A model generated the notes under the pieces. It ran no database searches. It was not told the DNA's origin and was given only the letters and a program-made list of their open reading frames with translations. From a virus: a stretch of 21,479 bases of DNA. The number at the start of each line of letters is the position of its first letter. Positions within the stretch are counted from its first letter, which is position 1. Position numbers and translations under genes: made by a program. This document shows positions 1-17,453 of the stretch, piece by piece. Where the stretch lies: the IMG/VR virus record IMGVR_UViG_3300040807_000840, positions 1 to 21,479 of that record; one strand, written 5' to 3'.

Positions 1-3000
1 ATGATTCATTAATGCCTGCGCCATTTGGATCTAAGAACAGTTCAAACATACGTGCTACTTTTTCTAACCACGCATCTGGAACTGCTGTTTGTCCACCTAC
101 TGTGCCAGCACCCATAATTCGTACACCATTAACTGTAAGTTCACGTTTGAAGAAATCACTACCATTGCCAGTAACATTACTGATTGCACCGTTGTTGTAT
201 TCTGCATCTGCTGGATTGCCAGGAATTTCGTCTGTGCCAGGAATTTCGGGTGTTCCTGCTACAAAATCAGTTGCATCAATTCTTACACCATTCTTATAAA
301 GATTGTAGACTATACCTTCTTCTAACGGTGCTCTAAGTTCTACAGCAATAGTAGATCCGTCAGATACAAAAACTTCATCTTCAAAAGTGTTTTCATAAAC
401 GTCCCATGCATCAGTAAACCATGGCTGACTATCCCATCCGCTTGAACCTCCAAAATCAAAACTCTTTACTTCTACTCCGCCATAGTCAATACCCGTCATT
501 AACTGATTAAGCTCTTTGCCAAACATGTTATCAGTCGGATTGTATGCAAATTTAATTCTGTCAGCTGCTTCTAAAAATTCTAAAGGCTTGTAGTATTCAA
601 TTCTAATAACACTATTACCTGTAGGAGCATTATTAAATGTTAATCTTCCTTTATTTTTTGTATATTGATCAATTATTTCTCTGTTAGAAACTTGATAAGT
701 GCTTTTTAACATTTCTTGGTCGTCTACAAAAACTTTAACCTTATTCTTACGAACATCAATAGGCCATTTTAAATCAAAAATTGTATCAACACCAGATGCA
801 GTAAATGTTTCTGATACTGCTAAATCTTCAATAAAATATTCTCCAGAAACTCTATCAAATTTTACTTTAATACTAGGAGTTCTTACAAGACTTTTTCCTA
901 ATATAGCAAATGCTGTTGCTGGTGTACCGTCTTCAGTTTGTGCACCTTCAAGTGTAATTTTAGGAGGATTAATAAATCTTCCGCCAGGATTACGAACTTT
1001 AATAGCAGTAACTTTTCCGTATCCAATAAAGGCTTCAGCAGTTGCACCTGAATTACTAGAATCTTCTATTATAACTTTGGGCGGGAATATATAACCTGAA
1101 CCTGGATTTTTTATTTTGATTTCTGAAAGTTCTGCTCCAAGATTGTCAGCAAAATATTTTCTAGGATATTCTTGTAAAATATTATCAACTTGTAGCAATG
1201 CGCCATCAAAAACGGTTGTTTTGATTGTTTCAATTTGTTGTGTAGTAGTATTATAAAACGGCGCTGCATCAAAATCTGTTACAACAGAATTTGTTGGATC
1301 AGTTTTATCATAGGATGCAACAAATTCTCTTATATTTGTCTTATAAGGCTTTACTTCTTTAACATAATTTTCAAAGTACTCTAAGTTGTCTTTCTTAAAT
1401 GTTGCAGGTTGATCTAACTCACCTAATTTATGATTAATTTTTATAAAACTAGTTTTAAATGCCCAATCAAGTAGTGGTTGTTCTGCTACAACGTATCTTA
1501 AACTACTTAAAAATAATTGGTTGTATTCAACTGCTAGTTCATTTATAAAAATATCATCTCTTAGTGCTTCAAAAATAATTCTTAATTCTTTTGCCGGATT
1601 TGTGTCGTAAAGAGTGCTATCAAAACTTCTATTATCATATCCTACTGTTGACTGTTGTATATTATAAAGATTAGAAGTGAATTGAATAGTACCGTTTTCA
1701 CGACCAATAGTTTCATAATCTACAGTATAATCTTCATTATCAGTAGTGCCTATTCTCTTAAGTAATAACCAGCCTGAACTTCCAATTGATTTAATTTTTA
1801 TTATAGAATTAAATTCTGGTTCTAATTCTTGTAATTCATAACTTTCATCAATTTCATAATTTATTTTTGTAAACTGATTATATCCTGGTGCATACCAATC
1901 TATATAATTCCAATATTTTGGAACATCATAACCTTGGGTAGATGTTCTAAACCATGTTTTGTCAATTTCATTATATCCGTAAATGCTCCAAAGATTCTTT
2001 GCAGTAGAATCTGCATTTACTAACACACCGAATCTTCTTACACTTATTGTTGTTTGATTTGTATAATTTTTTCCTGTGTTAGTAACTTCTGCAGATATTA
2101 CACTTCCTAAGTTATTAATTTGTAATTTTATTTCTGCATCAACGCCAGATCCATTTATATTAATAGTTGGAACTGTTTTATAGCCTCTGCCTGGAGATTC
2201 TATTTCAACTCTAACAAGCTCACCATTAGATATAATAGGTATTAATTTAGCAGGGCTTAAATTGTTTGTGCTTACATATTGCAATTCTTCTACAGTGTCT
2301 ACAGAAAGATCATACTTAGAAGATATTAATGTAGGAGCAAGATCGGTTTCAAACAATCGAGCTGTGTTATAATCATCTACTATTAATAAATCTTTAAATA
2401 TTATATTAATTCGTTCTATTGTTTGTTTTAGAGCTTCTATTCTATTAACAAACATAGACTGTCTAGGCATATTTAAAATGCCATACTTCTGAGTTTCTGG
2501 TAATTTAATATCGGGTACAGGTCTATTATTAGTATCAAATCCTATTAAACTGTCAAACCACTTTCTTTCAATGTCTACATCTAATTTAGAATTTGCATCG
2601 CCGTCGGCGATTAATTTGAATTCTTTATGAAGATTAGAATCCTTTGTAGCTTGCGATTTATATTTAATATTCAATACTAAATCGTCACCACTTAAAATAT
2701 TTTCAAAATTATTTAGAACTATTCTGTCTGCACCTAAAAACGAAATATACCTATAACCATTTTCTCTTGGTCTTTCAATTAAATTTACTATTTCAAAAAT
2801 ACTTAAATTTCTATTTTCTATATCAGGAACTGTTCTTTTAGATTCTACCCAATAGTAATATTTTGTTGAAAAGATTTGAGACACTTCATCATAAATTAAT
2901 TTTGTACTGTATTTTGTATCTCCGTATAAAGACTGTCCGCTAATTCCTAGTTTAATGCCTTCTTCTGTGTCAGCAAGATTACTCCATTGGCTTGGAAGAT

Positions 3001-6000
3001 AATCGCTTTCTATCCACTCGTATACATTAATACTAGCACCTTCCGTTAATACTGACCAATTATTTTTTTGTTCAAAAATATTACCTTGATAAGGATACTT
3101 AAATCTAGCAGTGCTAATATTCCACCAAACTTGTCCTACATGTTCGTCAAACCATGTTTGATTTGGATCATATTCTCTATCTGATGCTGTGCCAACATTA
3201 TAAAATGCTGGATCGGTTTGAGTTTTAAACGTTATTTCTTGTTCTGCCGGACCTGCAATTTTACCTTGTATTGGATCAATATAATCAATATAACTTATTA
3301 TCCTATTAGTAGTTTTGTTATAAACAAATGCTCCTTCAATTAAATCTAAATTTACAGGGTTGACAATTTCTTTATATAGATTCCATGCTAATTTTGTTTT
3401 TGGTTTTCTATAATCTACAAACATGCCTTTAGAGTCGTTACTGTTATAGAACGGCATACCGACATATACGTGATTGTCTTTTGCAAGTAATCGTTTGCCA
3501 AATTCTATTGTTGCATTATCAAATCTAAATTTTTCACTGTAGGTATAAGAATTATTTAAATTTTCGTATACGTATATTACACCAGAGTCAATTTTAATAT
3601 TTCTAAATGCAGTAAACTCTAGATCAAAAGTTGTAGATTGGTTATCAAATGTAGTAGGTATAGTTTGATCACCATTTAAACTTGTTACTGCTAAGTTTTC
3701 ATTAGTAAATGCAATTTGATAACCAAAATTTTCTGCTACTTCGTCTGCAGGACTATAAATTGTTTGACTTAATTCAAATTCTCCGTTTACTTGTGTATAA
3801 ATTAAAACTGCACCTTGACCATATTTTCGAGAATCATCTGAAGGGACACTAACGGCAATTTGTCTACCGTCTGGTTTAATTACTACACTTTGCGCCCAGT
3901 TTGTTCTATCAATATACAAATCAGGTGTTGCATCTAAATTTTGTGTTCTAGAACCAGTTTCTGAAGTTACTATATTTCCTTCGCTATCTGTGTATATCCA
4001 TCCGTCTCCATCTTTTAAAAATTTATCTAAGTCATGATCTTTTAAATCATAGCCACTTATTGGAGCAGATATTGTTTGGTATAATTTATATTTGTTGTTT
4101 TCTTTTCTATAAATTGCTAATCGTTTGTTACTTGTACTATCAGTCGATTCTAGTTTTACAGTAACAACTAAAACTTCTCCGTTTTTACTTACATCAAAAT
4201 TTTCACTAAATTCAATAATGTTTGTAGCAGGATCAAACACATCTTCGTTAAAGAATGCATTGTTAGTAAGATTTGGCAAATAACCTAAATAATCAAAATT
4301 ATTATCAGTTACTTCCCAATAAGTATCACTAAATTCTGTTCCTGTTGCGATATTTGTTTTTGCAACATAAAAACTATTATCTTTAAGAACTATTGAATTT
4401 ATTTCATAAGGGAAAGAATTGTCCCACTCCCCTCTATAATTGTCATCAACACCGTATCTCCAACTAATATTTGTCCAAACTATAGGATCAAGAATATTCA
4501 ATTGCGAACTATCGTCGGTGTCTTTATTTGCTCTATAATATTTGTCTTTGTAAATTACTACATCACCTTCATTATAAGATGTAGCTTGATAATCCTTTTT
4601 AAATACATCTGTAGTTTCTGGACCAGTTACAAAAATTTCAATACTGCCAGGATCTGAACGTGTAGTAGGATCTAAGTCGCCTTTACTACCGACAAGTAGT
4701 ACATAGGTATTTCCTTGTTTTCTAATTTTAACTTCGTCACCAAATTGTCTATTTGCAAACTTATATTGACTTGTGAGCATATAATCAAACTCATAAACAG
4801 CATTAGGTTGTCTCCTATAAATTACAACTGCGCCTTCATTGTCTAATCCACTCGATGTTCCTCTTTGATCAGCAGGTATGTTATAAACTTGAGTCCAATT
4901 TTTATTTAAATTATAAGGTGGACTTGCTGGAATTGAAATGCCGCCTTCGATTGTTTCATCATAGAAGTAATATTCTCCATCAAATATTTCAGGAGTAGAT
5001 ACTACATCAAATGGCGTATCTTTTTGGAAAACTAATAAATCTCCTACGAGATTAGTACCTAAAGCAATATCGTTACTTGGATCATCGATTGTACCCATTA
5101 CACGATCAACATCACCAGGTCCTCGAGCATCTTCATTCGCCTTTCTGCGAACCTGGAACCTACCAATATTATTCAGCTGATTCCAACTTCCGCTTAAAAC
5201 TTTTAAATAAACTCTTACAGAATTAAATTGCTTTTTATAAAAAACAACTTCTGCTGTACTTGTACTAGTGCTAGTAAGGGCTAAACCTCCTGAACCGTCT
5301 CTAGGAATTTGTACATCTTCAATAATATCTCCTACAACTGGCTCATATGGATTTCCTAAAAAGTCAAATTCTGTAAATTCAAAGTCAATATATCCGTCCC
5401 AGATATCATAAATTTGCTGAGACCCATTCATTTGATCAAGGTCAAAACCAGTAGATTCTAAATTTATTCCAGTATTTTCTGAGTCAAAAAATGTAAATTG
5501 TAGAGTTTTATTATCAGCACTACCTTGAGAATCAAATGCACTTATACTGGTTAAATAATCTTGGAAAGATTTACCAACTCTAACAACCCATAAGTTACTT
5601 AATTCTGGGCCGCTGTCACCATCATAACTTAAATTAGAAATATAACTTACACGATTTTTTTCTAATACAAATTCACCTATATTACCAACTGTATCCTGAA
5701 TGTTATAATACACAAATGGCCTGTCTGCATCGTCATTTTCTGCAGGACGTACATCTGCATAAACTAAACCTCGGCCTATATCTAAATACCTGCCATTATT
5801 AGCATACTCGAATCCAGTTTCTATATACCAAAAACCGCCAATATCTGGTGATGTTGAATATGTTGATTCTTGTGTATAAAATCCTATAAAGTTTCCAGTA
5901 CTTTGTACAAAAATTTCATCAGTAACATTAAAAATACCGTTGATATTTTTTAGATACAGTACTGCAGAATCTCTATAACTAGCAACATAAAATACTTCAC

Positions 6001-9000
6001 CTGAGCCAGTATCACTTTCGATTGTATCGCCTACCTCAGGCAAACTTACAAAAGTATCAATATAAACAATTGCATCAATTTTTTCAACAATTTCGTGTTC
6101 TTGTGTAATAAATTCTTTTGTAATTTCTGGTATTTGATCGTCAAATGGCAAATAGTTATCTAGTGTTGGATATGCATAACTACGCTGGTTCCAAGATAAA
6201 TTAACTTTATCTCCAGAAGCACCGTCTATTCTACCTTTAGTTGCAAGATACATATCTAATGGAGCTCTTACTAGTATATGATCAATACCATTTGTAGGTA
6301 ACCCAAATTTACCTGCAACTAACAATTGCAAACTTGTACTATCAGATGTATCAGAAGAAACAAGATTAATATAACTATCAAACGTACTAAATGTTTGTGT
6401 ACCTACTTCAGGATTAACTGTAGTATTAGCTTTCCAAAAACTTTCTCTAAACTTAACAATATCATGTTTACTATACTCTACAGTAGGATCAAAATTTCCT
6501 AAAAATTTTGTTTTTATTCCTGACATGTTTGGTATGCCAATAGCAAGATATTCACCGTCTTCACTTACATCTATGCTTGATCCAAAGTTTTCAAAAGAGT
6601 CTTGGTAACTATTTTTTGTTTCTGTAAAATCAATTACCTGTTGTAAAATTAAATTAGCATTTTCTTTTGATCTTCTATATACATAAATTTTACCTGTTTC
6701 ATCGCCAGAAGCAGAAACAAACAAATTATTATTATCATCAGTTACAGTCATTACGCCTGTAAAATTTTGAATAGTACTATCCCAATCAGAAGGATTATTA
6801 TATGTTTCTAAATATGAATAAACACTGTTGTTTTTTAAAACTGCCCAATTATTAGTGTTGTCATAATTGTCTATCCAGACTTTTTGCTCATTGTATAATT
6901 TTTCATTAACAATATCATTTAAATTAGTAGTATCATCAAGACGCACTTCTCTGAGTTTAGAAACTGCAAATGATTGTTCTAAGAAACCTAAAATATCATT
7001 TTCTATCGGAACTTTTATTTTTGCAATATTTAAATTAATATCTACAATTTTATAAAACCCATTAAGTTCGAATTCTTGTGCTCCGCGAACTGCAATTAAA
7101 TCGCCAATAGACAGCGTATTATCTAGCCATTTGTCCATAGACAACTCATAAATTAATTCGCCGGCATCATTTAAAGTATTTGCTTCTGTAAGTTCTGTTG
7201 CGTTTAAATTTGTGTCAATATGCTGATAAACAGTCCAGTTTTCATTTTCTTGATTTGTGAGATGTAAATAGCCGCCTAGTCTAAATACATTAACATTACC
7301 TAAAGCTAAATCATCTATAGTGTAAGATTCAAAATCTATATCGTCTTCGCTAACATATCCAGAAGATTTTATGTATTCTTTACTTTGAGACAATACTGGA
7401 AAAACTGAACTAGTATATTCCTGTGGACGATCTAACAAATCTGAAGGTAACACTCTAAAGATATTATCAAATTGCTCTGCAGGAAGATTATCTACAAATT
7501 CTACAGGCTGCGGACTAGATATCATTTTCTTTTCTTCGAGGTTTAACTCAATTTGTTGAATACTTTCTGAAGAACCGTATATACCTGATCGTACAGCCCA
7601 TTCTTCAAAATATTCTAAACTTTCCTCGCCAGACGCAGTTAAAGGAGCAAACAATTTTGAAAGACTGTTTTTTGTACCTTTTTCTTGGATATAGCCTTTA
7701 TAGAACTTTAGTTGACTTACATCGTCGACTATTAAATTACTTAGGTAATCTCTTTTTTGGAAGCCAATTAATCTAGATGCTAAATTGTGCAGAGATTGAT
7801 CAAAACTAGAAGTATTTGTATCGTAAAAATCGTTAAATTGATTTATTCTATAATCAAAATTTGTTAATAAATCCGGTACTGGTTTTTCATTTAGTTTGTA
7901 CCATTGATTATAATCTACACTTGTTGATCCCTGTATATTTTCTTTAGCAACATAATAATATTCTTTAAATTTTATAAGATCACCAATTTTGTAATCTTTA
8001 TAATTTTCAAAATCTTTAACTATAGCATTATCATACAAAAATCCTGGGATATTTAAGCCGCCATTCCAGTCTTCTGATCTATAACCATTAACTTTAATTC
8101 TTTGTTGTCTATAACCAGAAGCTGGGTGATAAATTACATCATTAAATATTGTTGTGTTAGATAGAACAACAACATGTTCTTTTTGTACAATAGGTAAAGA
8201 TGCTCCATATAATCCAAAGTCTGTATCTTTTATTTCTAATCCAAAACTATTATCTTCTCTTACTACACTGTTAAAGTTTCTATCAAGTGTTTGACCATTA
8301 CTTGAAACAATACTAGTATTATAAAAAGAATCAAATACATCATCTACAACTGAATAATTTGATTTAAAGAATAGTTTATTTGCAGCAGGACTTAAACTAA
8401 TAATTGTTCCATTAGCCCATCCTTGTGTAGTCCAGAACATAAATTCTTTTGTTACAGATACCCAATCATTTACTGTTTCGTCAGTTACGTCATCAAAAAC
8501 AAATCCTTGAGTAGTTAAATAGTTTCCGTAACCAGTAAGAAAATCTACTACTTCTTGAATACTTGTAAGTATAGATCCGTATGGTAATTTTTCTACTTTA
8601 TTGTTGTTAAAGTTTTTGTAAAACTCAGCTGTTCTACCTCCAATTGAAGGTAATGCAGGTAATTTAGCTAGGAAATCTGTTTCAAATATTCCTCCGCTTG
8701 TAAAATCTTGTGTTGCTCTATAATAAGTGTTTAGATGAAAAACTACCTGTCCCTTTTTGTATGGAGTTTGTTCGCTCCATTCTGAAAATTGTTCACTTAT
8801 TCCGCCAACCGATAAAATATAACTTGTTGATCCTACTAATGGTTTATAGTATTGGAAAAATGGTATTTTTGGATTATAACCCGTTACCTTAAATCCTGCA
8901 GGTGTTTTTTCAATAACTACACCACTATATACAAAGTTGTCTATAGGAGAACTTACATTATAAACTAAATTATAATTTTCTTGTGGTACAAAAATGCCCG

Positions 9001-12000
9001 TGGATCCTTTGTCCTGATTAGGAGACTTGCTTTCAAGAATAAGATTTAATTTTTGTTTATCACTAAATCCTCCTAATCTAAATGATAAATTTGTTTCTAA
9101 TGCAGTAACTTCATTTTGATAATCGCTATATACTGTTAATATATCACTTGCTAAAAGATTGTAAATGTAATTTACAAGTCCACAAGTTGTATTTCTAATA
9201 TTATCTGCATATGTATTTGGAAATACAATGTCTTTATTTCTAAAGAATGTGCCTGAATCTTTATATATGTTTTGCCCTGCAAGGTTCTTTGTAAATCTTG
9301 ATAAATCAAATCCTTTTGCTATTGTCTCTGCTGGATTAATTAGTAGCATAGACTTTAATAATGCAAAAGGATAATCGGAACTTTTCCTCCAAGCAGTTTC
9401 TATTGGAGAATAATCGCCAAATGCATAAGATTTAGAAGCATATCTTTGAACAAATCCTTTAACATAATTTATGTTTACTGGCGGTAATAGTTTACCTGTT
9501 TGATCTACTGGTATAAAAGATCTTAGATTTAGACGTTTGAATCTTTCGTCAATTCTACTATTATTAGGATCTGCTATTCTGCCATTTTCTAAATCTTCCC
9601 ATAGTACTAGGTTGTTACTTGTATATGGTGCAGGACCGTAAACATCGTTCCACCATGTAGGTTTATTTCTAAATCCTAACATTTCCCACGGATTTGTGTG
9701 AGGACGATCTGTATCAAATGCTTGATTATAAATCCCTCTCCAGAAACCTGGCAAAACTTTGCCATCTGGATTATTAGATTCACTATAATTAAATGTAAAC
9801 CCATTATTTCTATCATAAAATGAGTTTGAAGAATAATCTGCTGCAATGTTGGCTTGCCATCTAGTAAAATCTGTCAACAATAAGTTATTTTGTTTTTCTA
9901 AAGTATTTTGATATCCTCTAAAATCGCCACCTGTAAAATTAAAAATATCAAACTCATTGTCGTCATATGAAATTTTAATATTACTAAAAATTCTTTTCTC
10001 AAATTCAATAATTAAACTGTCTCTAAAATCTTTGTAACATGCAATTTGACTTCCGTCATGTCCTCTAATAAATGCAAAACCGATTGGGTATTCATCATAA
10101 TCTTCTGGATTAGAATCTTTAGAGTAGTTAGCATTAGTTTCAGGCAAATAAAATTTTGTATTTAATCCCTTAAACCACACTGCCTGAGAAGCACCATTTC
10201 CTCCATTGTTACTGTCTGCTGTTTCAGCAGCATTTTTTGATGTATATACTGGATAGGTCCATCCGAACGAATTTTTTAATTGACCTACTTCTACTTCTCC
10301 GTATATTTTAAAAGGACCTGAAATTGTTAAAGATGTTTCATCTATACCGGTGTCATCTATAAAGACTTCCGGATACCAAGATGGATACAATCCTAATTTA
10401 CTAGGTGTAGGAGCAATAAAACTTCCATCTGTATTATTGTATTCGTATATTTCAATTGTGTCGCCATTTTCTTTTGCTGCAATGATCTCTATAAAGCCAT
10501 CTTCATTAAAATTATAGTCTCTACCATGTACAAGTATTTTGTTATTAAGATAAACAGTGATTGCTTTTTCTGACAATGTTGACATTGAAAATGCAGTTGT
10601 TAAAGGAAATAAATTTATTTCTTTATCAATCACATTATATTCTATTCTATTTGCATCGCCATAAGCAAGCATATCGCTAAAATAAAACGGTTGAGAATCT
10701 GCTTTGTCTTTGTTTATTTCTTTTAATATTTTATCTACGTGAGCTTTGGGAGTACCGTCAAATCCTAATGAACTTGCAGTATCTACAAATATTTTTTTTG
10801 TTTTGTTGTATTCTAATGCTGAATATTCAACAGCTTTTATCAAATTGTATTTTTTATTTGTTAAATGGTAAATTGCATTAGCTAAACCTGCTTCGTGTTT
10901 AACAAATCTTTTGCCAAACTGACTTATATTACCTAAATCTCTAAGATTGCTTGTACCAGGATATGTGCCTGTAAATGATTGAAGATCTTCAATCATGCTA
11001 TCTACATGATCATAAACTTCGCCTAATGTAAATTGATTGATATCTTCATTAAGTGGATTTCTTTCTAAAGAAATAGGTAATTCATAATATCCGTTTTGAT
11101 TTTTATCAGCCGAGCTATGTAATTTTAATTTTAAATAATCTCCTACTGTTAAGTCGTTTACAAATGATACTAAAACCTTATTTTCTGTTTTAACAATATT
11201 ATAATCTGTATTTTTTAATTGTAGTTTATTATTAACATATACTTTGATTTTTAAATCTTCTAATAAATGAGGTTTATTGTAAACATCAACAGCAAAATTA
11301 TTTGTTAAGTTATCAGTAACTTCAATATCTCTAATAACATATTGTGTAAATCTACTTGGAGTAGAATTCCAACCATTTACATATTTAAAAGTTGTTCTAT
11401 CAGAATATTTTCTTAAATTTGATGTAGACGTAGGAACTTCAATTAAATCTTCATCGTTTTGATAAGAAAATACATCTGTAAGCAAATTAAATTCAAAAAG
11501 AATATCGCCTGTATTTTCTATATTTCTATATTGTAACGCAAATCCTAATTCGTTATCTACTGTTCCTGTGCCTTCTTTGTAACTAAAAATTTTAGTGCCA
11601 CTAAATGTGGAACTTTCAAAAATAGTTGTATTACTATATTCATTTCCTTGTGGACAACATAAATCAAATAAAGGTGGTTGATTGACTGCTAATTTTTCTT
11701 GTGCAGCAATCCACATATTTTTATGATAATGAAAAGTTTTTCCTGAATATACTTCACCTAGTTTTACAAATACGTTTTCTAAATCTAACGGAGTAGAATC
11801 CGCAGTTTCTACAAGATTGATAATTCTTTCAGTACCAATAGTTATAAATTTAACTTCATAAATTTTACCGCTAACTAATTGATCGGTATCAGCTCTGAAT
11901 AGAACTCTCATACCTTGTGCTAGTTCTACTCCATCAATAATATATCCTTGCGATCCTTGTATAGTACTAAACACATCAGTTGTAAAATTATCTAATAAGT

Positions 12001-13507
12001 CTACATCTTGTTTAGCAAATGTTCCGTAATTAAAAAGTTTCAATCCTGCATTAAATTCAATGATAGGACGTTTTGCTCTAAAATTATCATCTAAATTTTC
12101 TGCAATGTTATTATATTCGAAACTTTTTAAAACAACATCTTTATGGAACCATCTGTTATTTCTAGTCCAAGGGTTTTTATCTTGTGATGCTCTGTTTATT
12201 ATTAAATAATCTTTTTCTAAAGGATAGTTATTTGCTGTAGCAAACGGCGATACATCAAATTCTTCTGAATCAAACGGGACTCGAATATTATCTGTATACG
12301 CAGACGGAATAACTAATTCTCTTTGTGAAATTAATTTAATATTTTCGCCAACGCCTTCTACATACCAATTTCCTTCGTTATATTTTTCAGGAACAACTGT
12401 ACCTTGAAATCTAACAAGTAATCCGTTTGTAAAGTCTACACCGTTTGAACTTTGATAATATTTTTTTCCTAGTATATCTGTGTCAATATTTAAAAAGGTG
12501 TTTTCTTCAACGTCAAAGACTCGTATTTGGCCACTTGTGTTTACGTCATTTTGGCTAATATAAAATAGTCTATCAGGTGCATTAGCAGGTATTGTAAATT
12601 CAATTGTTCCTTTTTCTACATAAACAACTGCAACTTCGTCGCCATCTTCATTAAATTTAGTAATACCATCATTGTATAATGTTGACACATTTTCATCTGC
12701 TTCAAATGTTACACTTCCGGCATCAGGCGTAATAATAAAATCACCAATGTCATATTCGTTGCCATACAAGTCGGCACCGTACAATCCATCTGATCTAATT
12801 CCTTCTCTGCCTGCAACTAATAGAGCCAATCCTGGTATAAAAGTTCTACTTATAGAAAATGCTAAAGGGTGTCCTGGAGTATCAATTTCAAATCTATATG
12901 TTTGACCTCTATAAAGTTTTAATTTTGGATTTCTAGTAAACCCATCATTAAATACATATGCAACATTATCGCCCTGGTCTTCTAAAGTAACTGTGTATGT
13001 ACTTGTAATATCTCTCGATTGTCCCCTTACAGGAACACTCATAGGACCATTTGGCAGCCAATAGTAGTCTCTAAAATTTGTAAACGTATCCCAATTGATA
13101 TGCGGAGTCCAACTATAAGTATCTACTGTATTAAGAGAATTATGATTATTTGTATCTGCACCAAAATATCTTAAAATGTTTATGTAGTCTTTGTAATCTT
13201 TTAAAAAATCTACATTTTCTAAATTATCACGTATAACTACTGATGGCTCTAGTTGATAGTTTTCTCTATCATTACTAATTTCTGGTATATAACTATCTGT
13301 AGACTTATAAGAACTAGTATACTTTCTACCTACATAGCCGTCTACTTTTTCGGCAGCGCCGTCTGATATTAACTGATCTAAAGTACCTTGTAGGAACTTT
13401 CTGTTAGCTTCTGTTCTAAAGAACTTAGGTAAAAAATCTATTGACTTTTTCTTTTTACTATTAGGCGTTGGTAAAGCACTTTCGTTTTGATTGTTATTAT
13501 AAGCCAT
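1..13507 (-). CDS. Giant baseplate/tail structural protein, 3' end missing (over 4502 residues; gp7 position)
   Basis: The frame beginning at the ATG overlapping the gp6 stop was read codon by codon to the window edge: 4502 sense codons and no stop, so at least ~0.5 MDa of protein. T4 gp7, which sits at this place, has 1032 residues; this may be its functional counterpart, but I see no direct match. The N-terminus (SKKKKSIDFLPKFFRT, then LPNGP near residue 152) and the helical part at ~3960-4080 (EVKPYKTNIREF) look like large structural proteins of marine T4-like phages. Parts in order: cupredoxin-like motif ~195-217; VxVNxK...DY modules at 751-798, 976-1024 and 4240-4308; CBM5/12-like modules from 1577, 1836, 2338, 2973 and 3024; probable FG-GAP propeller 2249-3381 with insertions; NPGxGY repeats 3766-3832 and 4126-4204. 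Only four Cys (617, 618, 1157, 1442). No signal peptide or membrane segment is seen. The end, around AWLEKVARMFELFLDPNGAG, is cut inside a domain. Confidence 0.93.
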   Translation of the reverse strand, partial: MAYNNNQNESALPTPNSKKKKSIDFLPKFFRTEANRKFLQGTLDQLISDGAAEKVDGYVGRKYTSSYKSTDSYIPEISNDRENYQLEPSVVIRDNLENVDFLKDYKDYINILRYFGADTNNHNSLNTVDTYSWTPHINWDTFTNFRDYYWLPNGPMSVPVRGQSRDITSTYTVTLEDQGDNVAYVFNDGFTRNPKLKLYRGQTYRFEIDTPGHPLAFSISRTFIPGLALLVAGREGIRSDGLYGADLYGNEYDIGDFIITPDAGSVTFEADENVSTLYNDGITKFNEDGDEVAVVYVEKGTIEFTIPANAPDRLFYISQNDVNTSGQIRVFDVEENTFLNIDTDILGKKYYQSSNGVDFTNGLLVRFQGTVVPEKYNEGNWYVEGVGENIKLISQRELVIPSAYTDNIRVPFDSEEFDVSPFATANNYPLEKDYLIINRASQDKNPWTRNNRWFHKDVVLKSFEYNNIAENLDDNFRAKRPIIEFNAGLKLFNYGTFAKQDVDLLDNFTTDVFSTIQGSQGYIIDGVELAQGMRVLFRADTDQLVSGKIYEVKFITIGTERIINLVETADSTPLDLENVFVKLGEVYSGKTFHYHKNMWIAAQEKLAVNQPPLFDLCCPQGNEYSNTTIFESSTFSGTKIFSYKEGTGTVDNELGFALQYRNIENTGDILFEFNLLTDVFSYQNDEDLIEVPTSTSNLRKYSDRTTFKYVNGWNSTPSRFTQYVIRDIEVTDNLTNNFAVDVYNKPHLLEDLKIKVYVNNKLQLKNTDYNIVKTENKVLVSFVNDLTVGDYLKLKLHSSADKNQNGYYELPISLERNPLNEDINQFTLGEVYDHVDSMIEDLQSFTGTYPGTSNLRDLGNISQFGKRFVKHEAGLANAIYHLTNKKYNLIKAVEYSALEYNKTKKIFVDTASSLGFDGTPKAHVDKILKEINKDKADSQPFYFSDMLAYGDANRIEYNVIDKEINLFPLTTAFSMSTLSEKAITVYLNNKILVHGRDYNFNEDGFIEIIAAKENGDTIEIYEYNNTDGSFIAPTPSKLGLYPSWYPEVFIDDTGIDETSLTISGPFKIYGEVEVGQLKNSFGWTYPVYTSKNAAETADSNNGGNGASQAVWFKGLNTKFYLPETNANYSKDSNPEDYDEYPIGFAFIRGHDGSQIACYKDFRDSLIIEFEKRIFSNIKISYDDNEFDIFNFTGGDFRGYQNTLEKQNNLLLTDFTRWQANIAADYSSNSFYDRNNGFTFNYSESNNPDGKVLPGFWRGIYNQAFDTDRPHTNPWEMLGFRNKPTWWNDVYGPAPYTSNNLVLWEDLENGRIADPNNSRIDERFKRLNLRSFIPVDQTGKLLPPVNINYVKGFVQRYASKSYAFGDYSPIETAWRKSSDYPFALLKSMLLINPAETIAKGFDLSRFTKNLAGQNIYKDSGTFFRNKDIVFPNTYADNIRNTTCGLVNYIYNLLASDILTVYSDYQNEVTALETNLSFRLGGFSDKQKLNLILESKSPNQDKGSTGIFVPQENYNLVYNVSSPIDNFVYSGVVIEKTPAGFKVTGYNPKIPFFQYYKPLVGSTSYILSVGGISEQFSEWSEQTPYKKGQVVFHLNTYYRATQDFTSGGIFETDFLAKLPALPSIGGRTAEFYKNFNNNKVEKLPYGSILTSIQEVVDFLTGYGNYLTTQGFVFDDVTDETVNDWVSVTKEFMFWTTQGWANGTIISLSPAANKLFFKSNYSVVDDVFDSFYNTSIVSSNGQTLDRNFNSVVREDNSFGLEIKDTDFGLYGASLPIVQKEHVVVLSNTTIFNDVIYHPASGYRQQRIKVNGYRSEDWNGGLNIPGFLYDNAIVKDFENYKDYKIGDLIKFKEYYYVAKENIQGSTSVDYNQWYKLNEKPVPDLLTNFDYRINQFNDFYDTNTSSFDQSLHNLASRLIGFQKRDYLSNLIVDDVSQLKFYKGYIQEKGTKNSLSKLFAPLTASGEESLEYFEEWAVRSGIYGSSESIQQIELNLEEKKMISSPQPVEFVDNLPAEQFDNIFRVLPSDLLDRPQEYTSSVFPVLSQSKEYIKSSGYVSEDDIDFESYTIDDLALGNVNVFRLGGYLHLTNQENENWTVYQHIDTNLNATELTEANTLNDAGELIYELSMDKWLDNTLSIGDLIAVRGAQEFELNGFYKIVDINLNIAKIKVPIENDILGFLEQSFAVSKLREVRLDDTTNLNDIVNEKLYNEQKVWIDNYDNTNNWAVLKNNSVYSYLETYNNPSDWDSTIQNFTGVMTVTDDNNNLFVSASGDETGKIYVYRRSKENANLILQQVIDFTETKNSYQDSFENFGSSIDVSEDGEYLAIGIPNMSGIKTKFLGNFDPTVEYSKHDIVKFRESFWKANTTVNPEVGTQTFSTFDSYINLVSSDTSDSTSLQLLVAGKFGLPTNGIDHILVRAPLDMYLATKGRIDGASGDKVNLSWNQRSYAYPTLDNYLPFDDQIPEITKEFITQEHEIVEKIDAIVYIDTFVSLPEVGDTIESDTGSGEVFYVASYRDSAVLYLKNINGIFNVTDEIFVQSTGNFIGFYTQESTYSTSPDIGGFWYIETGFEYANNGRYLDIGRGLVYADVRPAENDDADRPFVYYNIQDTVGNIGEFVLEKNRVSYISNLSYDGDSGPELSNLWVVRVGKSFQDYLTSISAFDSQGSADNKTLQFTFFDSENTGINLESTGFDLDQMNGSQQIYDIWDGYIDFEFTEFDFLGNPYEPVVGDIIEDVQIPRDGSGGLALTSTSTSTAEVVFYKKQFNSVRVYLKVLSGSWNQLNNIGRFQVRRKANEDARGPGDVDRVMGTIDDPSNDIALGTNLVGDLLVFQKDTPFDVVSTPEIFDGEYYFYDETIEGGISIPASPPYNLNKNWTQVYNIPADQRGTSSGLDNEGAVVIYRRQPNAVYEFDYMLTSQYKFANRQFGDEVKIRKQGNTYVLLVGSKGDLDPTTRSDPGSIEIFVTGPETTDVFKKDYQATSYNEGDVVIYKDKYYRANKDTDDSSQLNILDPIVWTNISWRYGVDDNYRGEWDNSFPYEINSIVLKDNSFYVAKTNIATGTEFSDTYWEVTDNNFDYLGYLPNLTNNAFFNEDVFDPATNIIEFSENFDVSKNGEVLVVTVKLESTDSTSNKRLAIYRKENNKYKLYQTISAPISGYDLKDHDLDKFLKDGDGWIYTDSEGNIVTSETGSRTQNLDATPDLYIDRTNWAQSVVIKPDGRQIAVSVPSDDSRKYGQGAVLIYTQVNGEFELSQTIYSPADEVAENFGYQIAFTNENLAVTSLNGDQTIPTTFDNQSTTFDLEFTAFRNIKIDSGVIYVYENLNNSYTYSEKFRFDNATIEFGKRLLAKDNHVYVGMPFYNSNDSKGMFVDYRKPKTKLAWNLYKEIVNPVNLDLIEGAFVYNKTTNRIISYIDYIDPIQGKIAGPAEQEITFKTQTDPAFYNVGTASDREYDPNQTWFDEHVGQVWWNISTARFKYPYQGNIFEQKNNWSVLTEGASINVYEWIESDYLPSQWSNLADTEEGIKLGISGQSLYGDTKYSTKLIYDEVSQIFSTKYYYWVESKRTVPDIENRNLSIFEIVNLIERPRENGYRYISFLGADRIVLNNFENILSGDDLVLNIKYKSQATKDSNLHKEFKLIADGDANSKLDVDIERKWFDSLIGFDTNNRPVPDIKLPETQKYGILNMPRQSMFVNRIEALKQTIERINIIFKDLLIVDDYNTARLFETDLAPTLISSKYDLSVDTVEELQYVSTNNLSPAKLIPIISNGELVRVEIESPGRGYKTVPTININGSGVDAEIKLQINNLGSVISAEVTNTGKNYTNQTTISVRRFGVLVNADSTAKNLWSIYGYNEIDKTWFRTSTQGYDVPKYWNYIDWYAPGYNQFTKINYEIDESYELQELEPEFNSIIKIKSIGSSGWLLLKRIGTTDNEDYTVDYETIGRENGTIQFTSNLYNIQQSTVGYDNRSFDSTLYDTNPAKELRIIFEALRDDIFINELAVEYNQLFLSSLRYVVAEQPLLDWAFKTSFIKINHKLGELDQPATFKKDNLEYFENYVKEVKPYKTNIREFVASYDKTDPTNSVVTDFDAAPFYNTTTQQIETIKTTVFDGALLQVDNILQEYPRKYFADNLGAELSEIKIKNPGSGYIFPPKVIIEDSSNSGATAEAFIGYGKVTAIKVRNPGGRFINPPKITLEGAQTEDGTPATAFAILGKSLVRTPSIKVKFDRVSGEYFIEDLAVSETFTASGVDTIFDLKWPIDVRKNKVKVFVDDQEMLKSTYQVSNREIIDQYTKNKGRLTFNNAPTGNSVIRIEYYKPLEFLEAADRIKFAYNPTDNMFGKELNQLMTGIDYGGVEVKSFDFGGSSGWDSQPWFTDAWDVYENTFEDEVFVSDGSTIAVELRAPLEEGIVYNLYKNGVRIDATDFVAGTPEIPGTDEIPGNPADAEYNNGAISNVTGNGSDFFKRELTVNGVRIMGAGTVGGQTAVPDAWLEKVARMFELFLDPNGAGINES
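217..248 (-). repeat. Short direct DNA repeat (14 bases, 18-base period)
   Basis: The bases tgccaggaatttcg occur at 217-230 and again at 235-248. On the minus strand they encode PEIPGTDEIPG (residues ~4420-4430 of the giant protein), a proline linker that probably grew by slippage. Confidence 0.8.
584..790 (-). other. Phage beta module 3, VxVDxQ type, in the giant protein
   Basis: Residues 4240-4308: TIFDLKWPIDVRKNKVKVFV, then DDQEMLKSTYQV, GRLTFNNAPTGNSVIRIEYY. The long form 'PIDxR-x-N-K-V-x-V-F-V-D ... L-T-F-x-x-A-P-x-G-x-x-I-x-I-x-Y' is frequent in phage tail-fibre and baseplate proteins. Confidence 0.55.
896..1132 (-). repeat. NPGxGY-type protein repeats 3 and 4
   Basis: Residues 4126-4162 (IKIKNPGSGYIFPPKVIIED then ATAEAFIG) and 4163-4204 (AIKVRNPGGRFINPPKITLE then ATAFAILG). 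It is a clear tandem pair with the same 'NPG...PP-K-I/V' core and an Ala-rich end before each next copy. Confidence 0.75.
2012..2212 (-). repeat. NPGxGY-type protein repeats 1 and 2
   Basis: Residues 3766-3800 (RVEIESPGRGYKTVPTININ) and 3803-3832 (ISAEVTNTGKNYTNQTTISV). Both follow 'V-x-I-x-(N/S)-x-G-x-x-Y-x-x-x-(P)-x-I-x-I'. Repeat 2 is more diverged. Confidence 0.6.
4310..4438 (-). other. CBM5/12-like carbohydrate-binding module 5
   Basis: Residues 3024-3066: YRGEWDNSFPYEINSIVLKD then SFYVAKTN and a closing YWEV. It has the common phage form 'Y-x-G-x-W-(x)-Y-x(4)-V ... Y-x-A ... W', only 8 residues after module 4, making a tandem pair. Confidence 0.65.
4463..4591 (-). other. CBM5/12-like carbohydrate-binding module 4
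   Basis: Residues 2973-3015: YQATSYNEGDVVIYKDKYYR then AN, a loop, and a closing W (IVWTNIS). It is the best match in the set to the family core and lies directly before module 5. Confidence 0.62.
6398..6496 (-). other. CBM5/12-like carbohydrate-binding module 3
   Basis: Residues 2338-2370: NFDPTVEYSKHDIVKFRESF then WKANT. It has the 'Y-x-x-x-D-I-V-x-(5)-W/Y-x-A' core. It begins right after a propeller half-blade, so it looks inserted into that blade. Confidence 0.5.
7892..8002 (-). other. CBM5/12-like carbohydrate-binding module 2
   Basis: Residues 1836-1872: YKDYKIGDLIKFKEYYYVAK, an 11-residue loop, then NQWYKL. Both the GD-(I/V)-x-(5)-Y-Y-x-A core and the closing Trp are present. Confidence 0.58.
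8702..8779 (-). other. CBM5/12-like carbohydrate-binding module 1 (partial)
   Basis: Residues 1577-1602: W, four residues, then PYKKGQVVFHLNTYYRATQD. It matches the core 'Y-x-x-G-(D/Q)-V-V-x-(5)-Y-Y-x-A' of chitin/glycan-binding modules. The closing Trp of the family is not seen. Confidence 0.5.
10436..10582 (-). other. Phage beta module 2, VxVNxK...DY type, in the giant protein
   Basis: Residues 976-1024: ITVYLNNKILVHGRDYNFNE followed by NGDTIEIYEY. It is the clearest of the three copies, with the usual 'YLN-K-LV-G-DY' turn. Confidence 0.55.
11114..11257 (-). other. Phage beta module 1, VxVNxK...DY type, in the giant protein
   Basis: Residues 751-798: KIKVYVNNKLQLKNTDYNIV, then a strand and VGDYLKLKL. 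It fits the recurring phage-structural pattern 'V-x-V-N-x-K-x-L-x(4)-DY ... GD-x-I-x-I'. The same pattern returns twice later in this protein. Confidence 0.5.
12850..12925 (-). other. Cupredoxin-like motif in the giant protein
   Basis: Residues ~195-217 (KLKLYRGQTYRFEIDTPGHP) follow the pattern of a strand, 'G-x-TYRF-(D/E)', then 'HPLAF', that opens cupredoxin-like beta-sandwiches. The copper ligands of true cupredoxins are not evident, so a purely structural role is likelier. This is a fold guess from one motif. Confidence 0.4.
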
Positions 13508-16500
13508 TAGTAACTGTTGCCTCCGCTAGAATTTGTATCTCGACTTTGTACTCCGTAATTAGATTCTGAAGCACTTGTGATAGTATTGCCCGATGCTTGA
13601 AGTTGTGTTGCAGTAAGTTCTTCTATGATTTCAACATCAAAAACGTTTGCTCCGCTTATAAAAATTTCATCAGGTTCGGATCTTATTTCAAACAAACTAC
13701 CAAAACTTTGACTTCCTTGTCTTGGTACAATGACAATACTTACTAATTTAGGTGTTAATTGGTTCATAATATATGCTGCTAATTCTTGAAAATAAAATGT
13801 TTCACCAAAGTCCCAATTTTCAATTGCAAAAAATCTATCTATTGCACTTATAACATCTGCTTTTAATTCATTATCATTAACAACTACATCTTTATTTCTT
13901 ACAATTTTAAATATTACTTGTAAATCTTCTTTTGCTTTTTCACCAAAAAGAACTTTATACTTCACAGGATGATAAATTACTTCATCACTAATGGATTTAA
14001 TTTTTGCAATTTCAGAACCAAAGTTTCTATATAATTCATCATTGCTTTGAGGTAATGGCAATTTACTAATTGTTCCGTTTAGATATTTTCTAATATTAGT
14101 ATCGTAAGTTTTTGTCAACAAATAGGTATCAATTATATTGCTAACAGCAGGGTCAATTCTGTAATTGCTATCAGCAACATGAGTATATTCAAAACGTAGA
14201 TTATCTCTGCCAATATATGCTTTATAAGTATCTATAATAGTAAGATTATTTAATGCAGCATTTAATTGTTTAAAAACTTTTTCCTCATACAAGTAGAAAA
14301 TTTGATTTTCGTTTTCGTATTGACTATAAGCGCCAATTGCTGCTTCATTAGTTTTGATTAAAATAGTATTATTAGCATTATCAAAATATCTATATTCTTC
14401 TACACCATCTGCTGTTGTATACTTTCTTAAAAATATTAATTTTGTTTGTTCGTCCGTAGTAGGTTCTACTATTTCATTAAATAAGTCAGGATTATCAATT
14501 ACATTATCGTCGTCAAGATCGTGAAATTCTACTTGAATTTTTCTTGTATCAACATAGCCTTCTTTATCTCTATAAGCATCACTTATATTCCAATCAAAGT
14601 TCTTAGTGAAAGGAATATTAGTTCCAGGCTTAGAATTAATATTTAGAATTTTAACTAAATCTCTAACAATTTTTCCTGTTTTAGGATCATATATTTTATC
14701 TGCACTGTCAAAAAAGAATCTAACTTCGTCTGCACTTTCAAAAACATATCGTAAATTTCTAGTTGTGAGTGTGTATTTTTCTCCGTTAGTTTTAAAATAC
14801 ATAAGCCAACTTGAATCTAAATTTTGTGCTGTTATATCTCCTGCTTTACCTAAAGAAAAGTCATTTATTGTATTAATGTTTTCAGCAAGTACTAATTTCC
14901 ATTCAGAATTATTTCTGTCATATCTCAACGCAAAGTCTTTGTATGCAAACGCTTGGTCAATGATTTGAATTTTAAGATCATTAGAAAAAAATGTGCTCAG
15001 TAATGGAACAATTTGTGATAGCAAACTTCCGGTAGGAATAGCATCACTAAGTGTAATTCCGCCTGTATTATTTTCAGAATCTATTGTTGTTCCGTCATCT
15101 ACAACATTAGTCACTTTTGTCCATCTATATGTTGAACTCCCTGGATGATCTGCTGCGCCTGCCATTAATGTACCATCTTCCATAAAATGATAGCCTTCTG
15201 GTGCAGTAAATTTTAAAAGCGAACCTATTTTTATTGTTTTTAAATTATTTGCTGTAAATGTGCCAACTGGAAATTTATTTCCATCAATATCTTCTAATGT
15301 TCCGATATTTCTATTAGTACTCTGACTAAAACTATTCCAGTAAGAATTTAGATCTGATACTAATAAATTAGAAAATTCACTTGTATAAAAGTTTTTTAAA
15401 TTACTAGATCTTACTATACCTTGTAAAGTATTAACAATAACTCCTTCTATGTCACTTTGAGTAGTAAAAGTAAAGTCTTGTTTTGTTAAAAAAATGTCTT
15501 TATATAATACTCCATCATCGGCATACAATTTTGTTGTACTATATTTTCCGCTTGGATCTTTGATATCTAAGTATCTACTAATACCACTAGAAATTCTATT
15601 AACACTTTTTGTTTTGATTATCTCTTGGCTTATTGCTAGCGGACCTACATTATAATCCTCGCCAGTTATAAGTCTATTCTGAGTATAATAAGTAGTTGGA
15701 GCATTTAATTTTATATCTGCGTTAGTTTCTGCACCAGTACCATTTGTAATAGTATATTGTAACCTTAAACCTAAAGTAAGTGTTTCCTGTGAACCAGAAC
15801 GGCTTTGATAAGGAATACTAATATTCACATTACCTATAGATCCTGGTGCTATGGCTAGTGATTTATTAATACTAGTACGATAATAAACTTTAAAGTTACC
15901 GCTTGGTAAATTGCCAAATACGCCGTCACTAAAAACTAAGTTTATTCTATCTCCAATTCTACTTTCTACTGAAAATATATTTCTTACTTGATTAAACAAA
16001 CTATTATAGATAATATTATTACCTTCTGTTGAACTTAGTTTAGTCCACGCATTTGTTTCAAACCCATTTGAATCAATATTATAGAGCCAAACGTCAGTCT
16101 CATTTATATTAGATGCATCAATAGCAACTACTTGGTTAGGAACAGGATTTTTTACATTAAATGTTCCAGTTTGTAGTGCACCTTGTCTAATGTGCATAAA
16201 GAAACCTGTGTTCGAACTGCCTGGCCCTTGTCCGTCATCTCTAAACAAAAATGCAGGACTTGTTCCTGGAAGTGGTGTTTCTTCTTTTATTGTTGTATTT
16301 TCTATATCAGTGCTTACTATTTCAAATCTTACACTATCGCCTTCAATTGTTTTTGTAAATGGAAAAATTGGTGTGTCGGTATTAATAGCATTAAATCTAT
16401 ATTTTTGGGTTTGTATGCCTTCAATGTTAGCACTTTTTAAAGGATTGCCAATAGAATTATTTACAGGCAATGCTGCATTTAAAATCTTTGTAAATTGTTC

Positions 16501-16959
16501 AAAGTAATTATTATTTGACGTATCGTTCCACTTTACAACATTATTTGATAAATTTATACCAGAGCTGTCAAACAATGCTTCTGTAGTTTTTACAGAGGTA
16601 ACCTTTAACAAACCATTAGCTGCTTGATTCCTACGAGGATTGTAAGAAAGCATTTTTGCAAGTCTTAGTATACTTTCTCTGCGTTCTGCTGTTTCAAGAA
16701 AATTTTCTCTAGCGTTTAAATCGATACGGAATGATAAGTTTTGCCCAAGGAAAGCAATCATGTCAATAAGTGCAAGGTATTCTGAAGATTCAATGTAATC
16801 GTTAAAATCTTCTGGATAATTTTGACGCAAGTAGTTAATCATCGCACGGCGAAGATTATCAAAATCATAACTTTGGAAATCTGCATTCCTAAAGCTTTGG
16901 TAAATTCTTTTCCAATCCTCAGCTACAAGTAGCCTAGACTGCCTATCACTTGAAGACAT
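13507..16959 (-). CDS. 6: gp6 baseplate wedge subunit (enlarged, J-like)
   Basis: 1150 residues against about 660 in T4. gp6 joins wedges into the baseplate ring and belongs to the baseplate-J-like group. The N-terminus is typical: residues ~20-130 include YDFDNLRRAMINYL, SSEYLALIDMIAFLGQNLSF, RIDLNARENFLETAERRESI and YNPRRNQAANG. Residues 334-360 hold the J-like motif INLVFSDGVFGNLPSGNF followed by VYYRTS, and 420-435 hold APTTYYTQNRLITGEDY. The C-terminus (~990-1125) is the conserved gp6 end (EDLQVIFKIVRNKDVV, ENWDFGETFYFQELAAYIMN, SIVIVPRQG). The extra ~500 residues lie in the middle (~540-980) and include an EF-hand-like loop at 814-825 (DLDDDNVIDNPD). The start is an ATG with AAGGAA 7 bases upstream and a late promoter in front. 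The stop overlaps the next ATG (TAATG). Confidence 0.92.
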   Translation of the reverse strand: MSSSDRQSRLLVAEDWKRIYQSFRNADFQSYDFDNLRRAMINYLRQNYPEDFNDYIESSEYLALIDMIAFLGQNLSFRIDLNARENFLETAERRESILRLAKMLSYNPRRNQAANGLLKVTSVKTTEALFDSSGINLSNNVVKWNDTSNNNYFEQFTKILNAALPVNNSIGNPLKSANIEGIQTQKYRFNAINTDTPIFPFTKTIEGDSVRFEIVSTDIENTTIKEETPLPGTSPAFLFRDDGQGPGSSNTGFFMHIRQGALQTGTFNVKNPVPNQVVAIDASNINETDVWLYNIDSNGFETNAWTKLSSTEGNNIIYNSLFNQVRNIFSVESRIGDRINLVFSDGVFGNLPSGNFKVYYRTSINKSLAIAPGSIGNVNISIPYQSRSGSQETLTLGLRLQYTITNGTGAETNADIKLNAPTTYYTQNRLITGEDYNVGPLAISQEIIKTKSVNRISSGISRYLDIKDPSGKYSTTKLYADDGVLYKDIFLTKQDFTFTTQSDIEGVIVNTLQGIVRSSNLKNFYTSEFSNLLVSDLNSYWNSFSQSTNRNIGTLEDIDGNKFPVGTFTANNLKTIKIGSLLKFTAPEGYHFMEDGTLMAGAADHPGSSTYRWTKVTNVVDDGTTIDSENNTGGITLSDAIPTGSLLSQIVPLLSTFFSNDLKIQIIDQAFAYKDFALRYDRNNSEWKLVLAENINTINDFSLGKAGDITAQNLDSSWLMYFKTNGEKYTLTTRNLRYVFESADEVRFFFDSADKIYDPKTGKIVRDLVKILNINSKPGTNIPFTKNFDWNISDAYRDKEGYVDTRKIQVEFHDLDDDNVIDNPDLFNEIVEPTTDEQTKLIFLRKYTTADGVEEYRYFDNANNTILIKTNEAAIGAYSQYENENQIFYLYEEKVFKQLNAALNNLTIIDTYKAYIGRDNLRFEYTHVADSNYRIDPAVSNIIDTYLLTKTYDTNIRKYLNGTISKLPLPQSNDELYRNFGSEIAKIKSISDEVIYHPVKYKVLFGEKAKEDLQVIFKIVRNKDVVVNDNELKADVISAIDRFFAIENWDFGETFYFQELAAYIMNQLTPKLVSIVIVPRQGSQSFGSLFEIRSEPDEIFISGANVFDVEIIEELTATQLQASGNTITSASESNYGVQSRDTNSSGGNSY
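13520..13524 (-). promoter_or_regulatory. Shine-Dalgarno GGAGG of the giant gene, inside the gp6 3' end
   Basis: GGAGG on the minus strand, 12 bases before the ATG at 13507, embedded in the last codons of gp6. The spacing is long, but the core is the strongest match in the window. Together with the TAATG overlap it fixes the start of the giant gene. Confidence 0.6.
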
Positions 16960-17009: not shown

Positions 17010-17453
17010 TTAATTTCTTAAACTTAGCCCAACTGTCTGGTCGAATGTAAAACGCATTTCTTCACTGATAGCATAGTCAAGAAATGTAACTGTTGCTGTA
17101 ATTTGAATGCCATTATCGTAAGTATCTACGATAACATTTTCTGCTTGTACACGAGGATCATAATTTATGATAAAAGTTACATTTTCAATAATAGCTTTTT
17201 GCAAAGCAGGAGTAAACGGTTCAAACAATATATCCCATATAATACAACCAAAAGAAGGATCACCTAGTTTTTCACCTTGTCTAATATGAAAATGATTTAC
17301 AATATCTTGTTTAATTAATTCATGATCGTAAAGATTAAAACCTTTATTAGAATCGCCAGAATAAAACCCTCTGTAGGATTTTGAAGGTTTAGGTTGTATA
17401 TTAGTACTTGGAACTTGTACTCTTTTATATAGATTTTGTTCTAATTCACTCAT
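17010..17453 (-). CDS. 25: gp25-like baseplate wedge subunit
   Basis: 147 residues, close to the ~130 of T4 gp25 and other GPW/gp25-family proteins, which link the wedges to the hub and tail tube and resemble T6SS TssE. Seen in the sequence: an N-terminal extension (residues 1-25), the ISR-type helix region (LYDHELIKQDIVNHFHIRQGEK), the conserved GDPSFGCIIWDILFEPF segment, and YDPR at the place of the family's EPR-type motif, followed by a VDTYDNGIQITATVTF beta section. The gene starts 11 bases after the gp5 stop. Its ribosome binding site is the gp5 stop region (TAGGTA, complement of 17462-17467), 8 bases from the ATG, so expression is probably coupled to gp5. T4 keeps gene 25 away from 5 and 6; here it lies between them. 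Confidence 0.93.
   Translation of the reverse strand: MSELEQNLYKRVQVPSTNIQPKPSKSYRGFYSGDSNKGFNLYDHELIKQDIVNHFHIRQGEKLGDPSFGCIIWDILFEPFTPALQKAIIENVTFIINYDPRVQAENVIVDTYDNGIQITATVTFLDYAISEEMRFTFDQTVGLSLRN

Follow-up and report, generated by a model that had tools for sequence, protein, structure and literature searches.

A putative giant baseplate protein at the genomic place of T4 gp7 and its mobile domain in marine phages

The giant gene and its neighborhood

The analyzed window is an entire virus record of 21,479 bases. Its main feature is a reading frame on the minus strand (2..13507) that begins with an ATG at 13507, comprises 4502 codons, and is still open at the window edge; its translation contains no stop, in agreement with the first-pass annotation. 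The longest stop-free frame spans 4508 codons, compared with a mean of 115 and a maximum of 206 in 50 base-shuffled windows. The complete gene is found in a longer record, IMGVR_UViG_3300040960_001631 (hereafter G001; 119,997 bp), which matches all but 3 of the 21,479 bases of the window and whose giant protein differs from that of the window in one amino acid, at residue 596. In G001 the gene extends from 22608 to 6073 on the minus strand and encodes 5511 aa with a calculated mass of 623,466 Da. Thus, the window holds the first 4502 of 5511 residues, and the stop codon lies beyond it, at G001:6073, where the proposed search in a longer contig located it. The expected size of at least 0.5 MDa was correct. 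To rank the giant among the longest phage proteins to be expected was too strong, since gp148 of cyanophage S-RIM12, directly after gp6 and so in the same position, is longer (6376 aa; L228 12720-31850).

The genes upstream of the giant encode, in transcription order, a 309-aa protein (phrog_12050), a 108-aa gp53-like protein (phrog_7145), a 1050-aa protein (phrog_11190), and a protein with an endolysin-like N-terminal part (20197..21477, minus strand, cut at the window edge; 427 aa in G001; phrog_90, E 1e-24). They are followed by a 915-aa gp5-like hub protein (17465..20212, minus strand; phrog_13211) with a C-terminal M15 peptidase domain (PF13539, E 1e-13), a 147-aa gp25-like baseplate wedge protein (17010..17453, minus strand; PF04965, E 8e-8), a 1150-aa gp6-like baseplate wedge protein (13507..16959, minus strand; phrog_10646, E 1e-300; phrog_219, E 2e-25), and the giant. 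Downstream of the giant, three genes encode proteins of 200 aa (phrog_11259), 683 aa (containing a tail-collar domain), and 633 aa, the last of which has N-terminal families in common with the 683-aa one. This set of genes is a T4-related baseplate operon. The M15 peptidase domain of the hub protein (window 17465-20212) stands where T4 gp5 has a lysozyme domain. The giant directly follows gp25 and gp6, both confirmed by profiles, and its assignment to the place of T4 gp7 therefore holds. Judging from gene order and family, it is probably a structural baseplate protein of a T4-related phage.

Family, conserved cores and added domains of the giant

The giant belongs to the known family phrog_10938, "virion structural protein" (profile match, E=0, 1056.8 bits). 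By tblastn, its residues 1-1000 have matches in 57 phage records out of 50,697, none of which reaches 60% identity. Giants from isolates have 4555 aa in Phosso, 4449 in Atu_ph07, 3857 in PA5oct, 3807 in SCTP-2, 3771 in Vibrio 2.275.O, 3341 in GAP32, and 3326 in RaK2. The gp25-gp6-giant adjacency is observed in five of these seven records (Phosso, Atu_ph07, PA5oct, GAP32, and RaK2), with genes taken as named or by size; in Atu_ph07 and RaK2 the gp25 gene is recognized by size only. In Vibrio 2.275.O the same order is seen by gene sizes only, and SCTP-2 does not have it, its gp6-like gene being located elsewhere. Profiles of three segments of the giant (residues 1-1130, 1131-2150, and 3371-4110) match all six isolate giants tested, with E from 1e-80 to 1e-206, and identity in the matched pieces is about 24-37%. 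The conserved pieces are roughly residues 1-190, 344-1062, 1134-2004, 3375-3716, and 3866-4086, the remainder being variable. The strongest-matching core, residues 1134-2004, is encoded at 7496..10108 and the second core, residues 3375-3716, at 2360..3385, both on the minus strand.

Some relatives come with virion data. The record of the PA5oct homolog, gp355, carries the note ESI-MS/MS. Passages of one study describe a 4455-aa structural protein beside the wedge genes of AP-J-162 and state that structural assignments in Atu_ph07 rest on ESI-MS/MS (PMC11242549). MIJ3 has a homolog of the giant by tblastn; in the passage on LC-MS/MS of several major bands of this phage, four structural proteins are named and the giant is not among them (PMC6892783). 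The main text of PMC3622015 does not mention the RaK2 protein ORF070. Giants at the place of gp7 are already documented, and of the earlier interpretation the place and the size stand, whereas the novelty of the giant and its origin by fusion do not.

The proposed fusion of several wedge or peripheral proteins is unsupported, as the comparisons revealed no homology with T4 gp7, gp8, or gp10. With profiles of the three segments, hmmsearch left T4 gp6-gp11 unmatched, and hhalign probabilities against gp7 (a single sequence), gp8, and gp10 were below 1%; these are sequence tests, compatible with a structural relation. For the same segments the PDB sequence search gave no baseplate entry, and phmmer with the 4502-aa frame against PDB gave nothing. 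A fusion of T4 gp7, gp8, and gp10 specifically was rejected on the lack of profile matches and of PDB baseplate sequence matches for the three segments. The AlphaFold model of residues 1-1130 has low confidence (pLDDT 68.9, pTM 0.45). Among the structural matches listed for it gp7 is absent, and a baseplate chain of Klebsiella phage KP1 appears at rank 43 with E 3.7e-3 and rmsd 29. The model has no interpretable structural match besides a cupredoxin-like domain.

This predicted domain comprises giant residues about 163-336 (12500..13021, minus strand). The model of this region has a cupredoxin fold by VIA (Z 10.4, rmsd 2.6, 97 residues), and Foldseek matches rusticyanin with E 6.5e-4; model residues 225-274, within the region, have pLDDT below 50. 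Copper ligands of cupredoxins are expected to be Cys, His, and Met. The giant has no Cys before residue 617, and LFYISQN occupies the expected ligand place. Residues 169-276 show weak profile similarity to residues 569-691 of S-RIM12 gp146 (hhalign probability 28%).

Further segments of the giant are candidates for carbohydrate binding. A CBM5/12-like segment at residues 1576-1604 (8696..8782, minus strand) matches PF02839 with E 5e-4, below the gathering score, and a PDB sequence search gave a chitinase match with E 0.11. Short CBM5/12-like motifs occur at residues 1583, 1839, 2978, and 3034; the regular expression also matched at 463 and 4404, likely by chance, and in shuffled sequences it gave a mean of 0.26 and a maximum of 3 matches. 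A repeat of ~70 residues occupies residues 3752-3824 (2036..2254, minus strand) and, in a second copy, 4115-4187 (window 947-1165). It has many matches in three cyanophage baseplate-region proteins, and its region matches the Dpo31 depolymerase with E 0.0012. The giant may have grown by the addition of beta-rich, cupredoxin-like, and carbohydrate-binding-like domains around its conserved cores.

Hosts, fold and cellular relatives of the mobile domain

The unusual part of this protein is not the giant itself but a mobile domain of 316 residues, giant residues 4428-4743. Together with its linkers it forms an insert at about 4411-4763, whose start (linker and beginning of the domain) lies at 1..278 on the minus strand. 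Read along the gene, the domain occupies only the last 226 bases of the window and was beyond what the first-pass annotation could notice: its first 75 residues are encoded at 2..226 (minus strand), with GC content 0.422 vs 0.338 in the next kilobase.

Copies of the domain in unrelated marine phage proteins are 76-95% identical to it, as are those in other giants whose remaining sequence is only about 25-42% identical to ours. By tblastn, giant residues 4300-5511 match 96 phage records, 85 at 80-90% identity, with the matches listed spanning residues 4428-4743, and 11 below 60%, which is the number of Pseudomonas phages. The domain alone is found in 85 of 50,697 phage records at 80-90% identity, and all are named Synechococcus or Prochlorococcus phages or cyanophages. 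In IMG/VR it is encoded by 165 of 167 pattern-matched stretches. We analyzed 80 of these 165 copies; they were retrieved by exact short query peptides, which favors near-identical ones. The distance counts given below use 67 of 69 distinct copies, a few of the 69 being truncated. Alignment A1 contains 64 of the 67 copies and A2 contains 52 of them plus 5 bacterial sequences; for alignments A3-A5, 32/57, 37/64, and 35/56 segments were used after filtering for coverage and near-duplicates.

Single-linkage clustering of the host reading frames (n=82) placed 25 together with our giant and the remainder in ten further clusters; the resulting 11 is a rough count, and the largest cluster may join several families. 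Pfam analysis of eight host proteins identified Peptidase_S8 in four, a laminin G domain in one, an Ig-type domain in one, and nothing in two. In L140 the Peptidase_S8 match (56-706) spans the mobile domain (74-386). In five proteins (L140, L149, L150, L153, and L179) the domain is inserted in frame between the motifs of the subtilase catalytic Asp and His, and in L147 it follows the S8 part and makes up the C-terminal end. Within giant orthologs the insertion sites are at about 1346, 4427, 4790, 5070, and 5165, plus less well-placed ones. The L192 and L200 copies resemble a circular permutation, with the N-terminal strand following the C-terminal end; this arrangement suggests that the domain has its two termini close together.

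Mobility of the domain between unrelated marine phage proteins is thus observed. We lean toward an interpretation in which the giant is a structural protein at the gp7 place and bears, in its C-terminal region, an exchangeable domain that is displayed on virions and acts at the host surface. Another explanation is that this is an ordinary giant of the jumbo-phage family, whose C-terminal domain is the usual swapped tail domain and nothing special. The family is indeed already known, and domain exchange is common in phage adsorption genes. A passage of PMC7029224 describes a variable cluster for host recognition located between gp14 and the gene for VrlC. However, the 316-residue domain resides in subtilase, tail-fiber-like, and lectin-like proteins, sometimes as the end of a protein and, within one orthologous protein, at several positions, which goes beyond the swapping of homologous tips. 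We consider the ordinary-giant explanation unlikely, though it deserves serious attention.

Searches of Pfam, NCBIfam, PHROG, and PDB sequences gave no significant match to the domain. Literature word searches found no description of it, although such searches cannot exclude one; the zincin passages of PMC7824862 concern other proteins. The AlphaFold model is good (pLDDT 86.4, pTM 0.88). Foldseek gave no significant match (best E 0.36), the first two hits being thermolysin-like proteases, and BFVD gave nothing significant. The 50 VIA matches listed are zincin proteins or toxin relatives; the best is PPEP-2 (Z 6.7, rmsd 5.0, 155 residues), with Z in a range that can reflect a common arrangement. 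At twelve positions chosen from conserved columns, all 57 aligned copies have the same residue, and the residues invariant in all 57 include H92, E156, E159, H160, H163, H166, and E228. The residues from E156 to H166 are on helix 150-168, which carries ExxEHxxHTxH, and E228 is on helix 219-237.

Relatives in cellular genomes were detected with an alignment query, which gave 5 relatives among 23 pattern matches, at 63-70% identity; a single domain sequence as the query gave 0 among 36. The five are from metagenome-assembled genomes (MAGs) of Opitutaceae, Acidimicrobiia, Actinomycetota, and Actinomarinales. Three were viewed: two are stand-alone proteins (401 and 366 aa) with a start that looks lipoprotein-like by eye, and one has a longer N-terminal part. 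The stand-alone relatives in Acidimicrobiia/Actinomycetota MAGs (L211 5689-6894 and L212 5755-6855) adjoin a 1300-aa lipoprotein-like protein with HEYEH. In the order of G003, including L214 (Actinomarinales), 8 of 42 genomes have matches: four strong, two fragments, and two distant. In the phylum of G002 (Opitutaceae) there are two matches in 240 genomes, one of which, a transhydrogenase-like protein, was rejected by eye as a chance match. A distant 295-aa lipoprotein-like relative retains ExxEHxxHT and a later Glu.

With these relatives, the domain could be viewed tentatively, and with rather low confidence, as a self-contained, enzyme-like unit: a new metal-dependent peptidase or surface-modifying family that spreads as an in-frame plug-in among ocean phages. 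Its kin would be the lipoprotein-like proteins of marine actinobacteria. It would be gained or lost within a phage species, inserted into loops of exposed virion proteins (baseplate giants, tail fibers, and subtilase proteins), and directed at a target common to the hosts of several phage groups. More specifically, the domain might be a metallopeptidase that is carried on the virion, belongs to a new family, and cleaves a protein of the host surface. The listed VIA matches, with PPEP-2 as the best, and the invariant Glu and His residues on the two helices, partly kept in the distant relative, point in this direction. However, the HExxH motif is absent from the domain, and the Foldseek matches fall short of significance. 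In addition, 9 of the 50 listed VIA matches are to the N-terminal domain of anthrax lethal factor (7) or to Certhrax (2), that is, to domains that bind rather than cleave; therefore, a non-catalytic binding domain fits equally well. The metallopeptidase proposal is accordingly doubtful. More generally, the domain would be extracellular, possibly metal-binding, and used at the host surface, where it may cleave, bind, or decorate.

Exchange of the mobile domain and comparison with known systems

Two pairs of closely related phages with and without the domain are observed. L092 (IMGVR_UViG_3300017956_003900) has 31 nt in place of 1060 nt in G001, with flanks that are 99.3-99.4% identical over 3823 and 4787 bases; the difference is a loss in L092 or a gain in G001, in either direction. 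Among the S-RIM12 isolates, RW_28_1109 has the protein without the domain (1404 aa) and RW_29_1109 with it (1721 aa). Here the flanks are 98.2% and 99.7% identical, and the affected protein is encoded two genes after the giant.

Several sequence comparisons point to recent exchange of the domain. The G001 and L131 copies have dS 0.19, dN 0.032, and 93.6% nucleotide identity, and their giants are 35% identical over 3158 aligned residues. The hosts have no detectable similarity in 1747 of 2211 copy pairs, and in 14 of these the domain DNA is at least 90% identical (maximum 92%); for homologous hosts with identity below 45%, such domain DNA is found in 13 of 287 pairs. The identities of domain and host protein show a weak positive correlation (Spearman 0.245, 373 pairs), and L156 has the same insertion site as G001 and similar linkers; hence the distribution is probably in part vertical.

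In-frame insertion into many unrelated proteins, including a catalytic domain, and the near-identical phages with and without the domain could also indicate a protein-splicing or other selfish element that removes itself and leaves the host protein unaffected. Inteins have a terminal nucleophile and a C-terminal His-Asn followed by Cys, Ser, or Thr. These junction residues are absent from the 69 distinct copies, whose starts lie near DPEY and whose ends lie near SGYVVD; both sequences have variants, and the neighboring residues vary. Moreover, flanking residues are replaced, not preserved, at the insertion, some copies form the end of their protein, and dN ranges from roughly one tenth to one quarter of dS in comparisons with the G001 copy. 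These observations make a selfish element very unlikely.

In the giant gene the domain has a GC content of 0.426; the gene itself has 0.316, and none of its 457 other windows is above 0.349. Over all copies it averages 0.413 (range 0.355-0.435), the rest of the loci having 0.32 to 0.42, and it is nearly independent of phage GC (r 0.12, 67 copies); four related copies have 0.355-0.356, not 0.41. Such an abrupt change might be expected of a chimeric assembly with a high-GC end from another phage, but the frame is open across both junctions, each junction is identical in two records (the left in the window record and G001, the right in G001 and IMGVR_UViG_3300040807_001226), and the S-RIM12 isolates show the same with/without polymorphism, which leaves this explanation scarcely credible.

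Returning to the interpretation of an exchangeable domain displayed on virions, marine phages may exchange it by recombination at flexible Pro/Ala/Gly linkers or surface loops and graft it in frame onto any virion protein available. In the giant, it would be exposed on the baseplate rim and would bind or, more boldly, modify a host-surface component during adsorption. Cyanophages and jumbo-like marine phages alike carry the exchangeable domain, which nearly identical isolates may have or lack. If it is displayed and active, ocean phages that are otherwise unrelated would have a phage-host contact module in common, and S-RIM12 isolates of both types make this directly testable on laboratory Synechococcus.

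Among known systems, Pro-Pro endopeptidases and M34-like zincins are the top structural matches of the mobile domain, which differs from them in a Z of only 6.7, the absence of a catalytic HExxH, and the lack of a sequence match. The giant resembles T4 gp7 in following gp6 in the same transcription direction, but is five times longer, with no sequence similarity found. According to a passage of PMC7029224, pelagi- and cyanomyophages lack gp7, and VrlC appears to substitute for it. The likeness of VrlC to our giant is one of described position only, both taking the place of gp7. The S-RIM12 gp148 and S-B43 giants share position, large size, and the small repeat with ours; the S-B43 protein, a "baseplate wedge initiator" of 4337 aa located, like gp148, after gp25 and gp6, also holds the mobile domain. 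Outside this domain, matches of the two proteins to ours are confined to the ~70-residue repeat, which in S-B43 gives a 97-residue blastp piece (giant 3751-3846, 39% identity). Therefore, several unrelated or highly diverged giants occupy the gp7 place. Close counterparts are the giants of phrog_10938 and their relatives in jumbo phages, with the same conserved cores, large size, and, in five of the seven records, position after gp25 and gp6; compared with them, our giant is longer (5511 aa) and bears the mobile domain.
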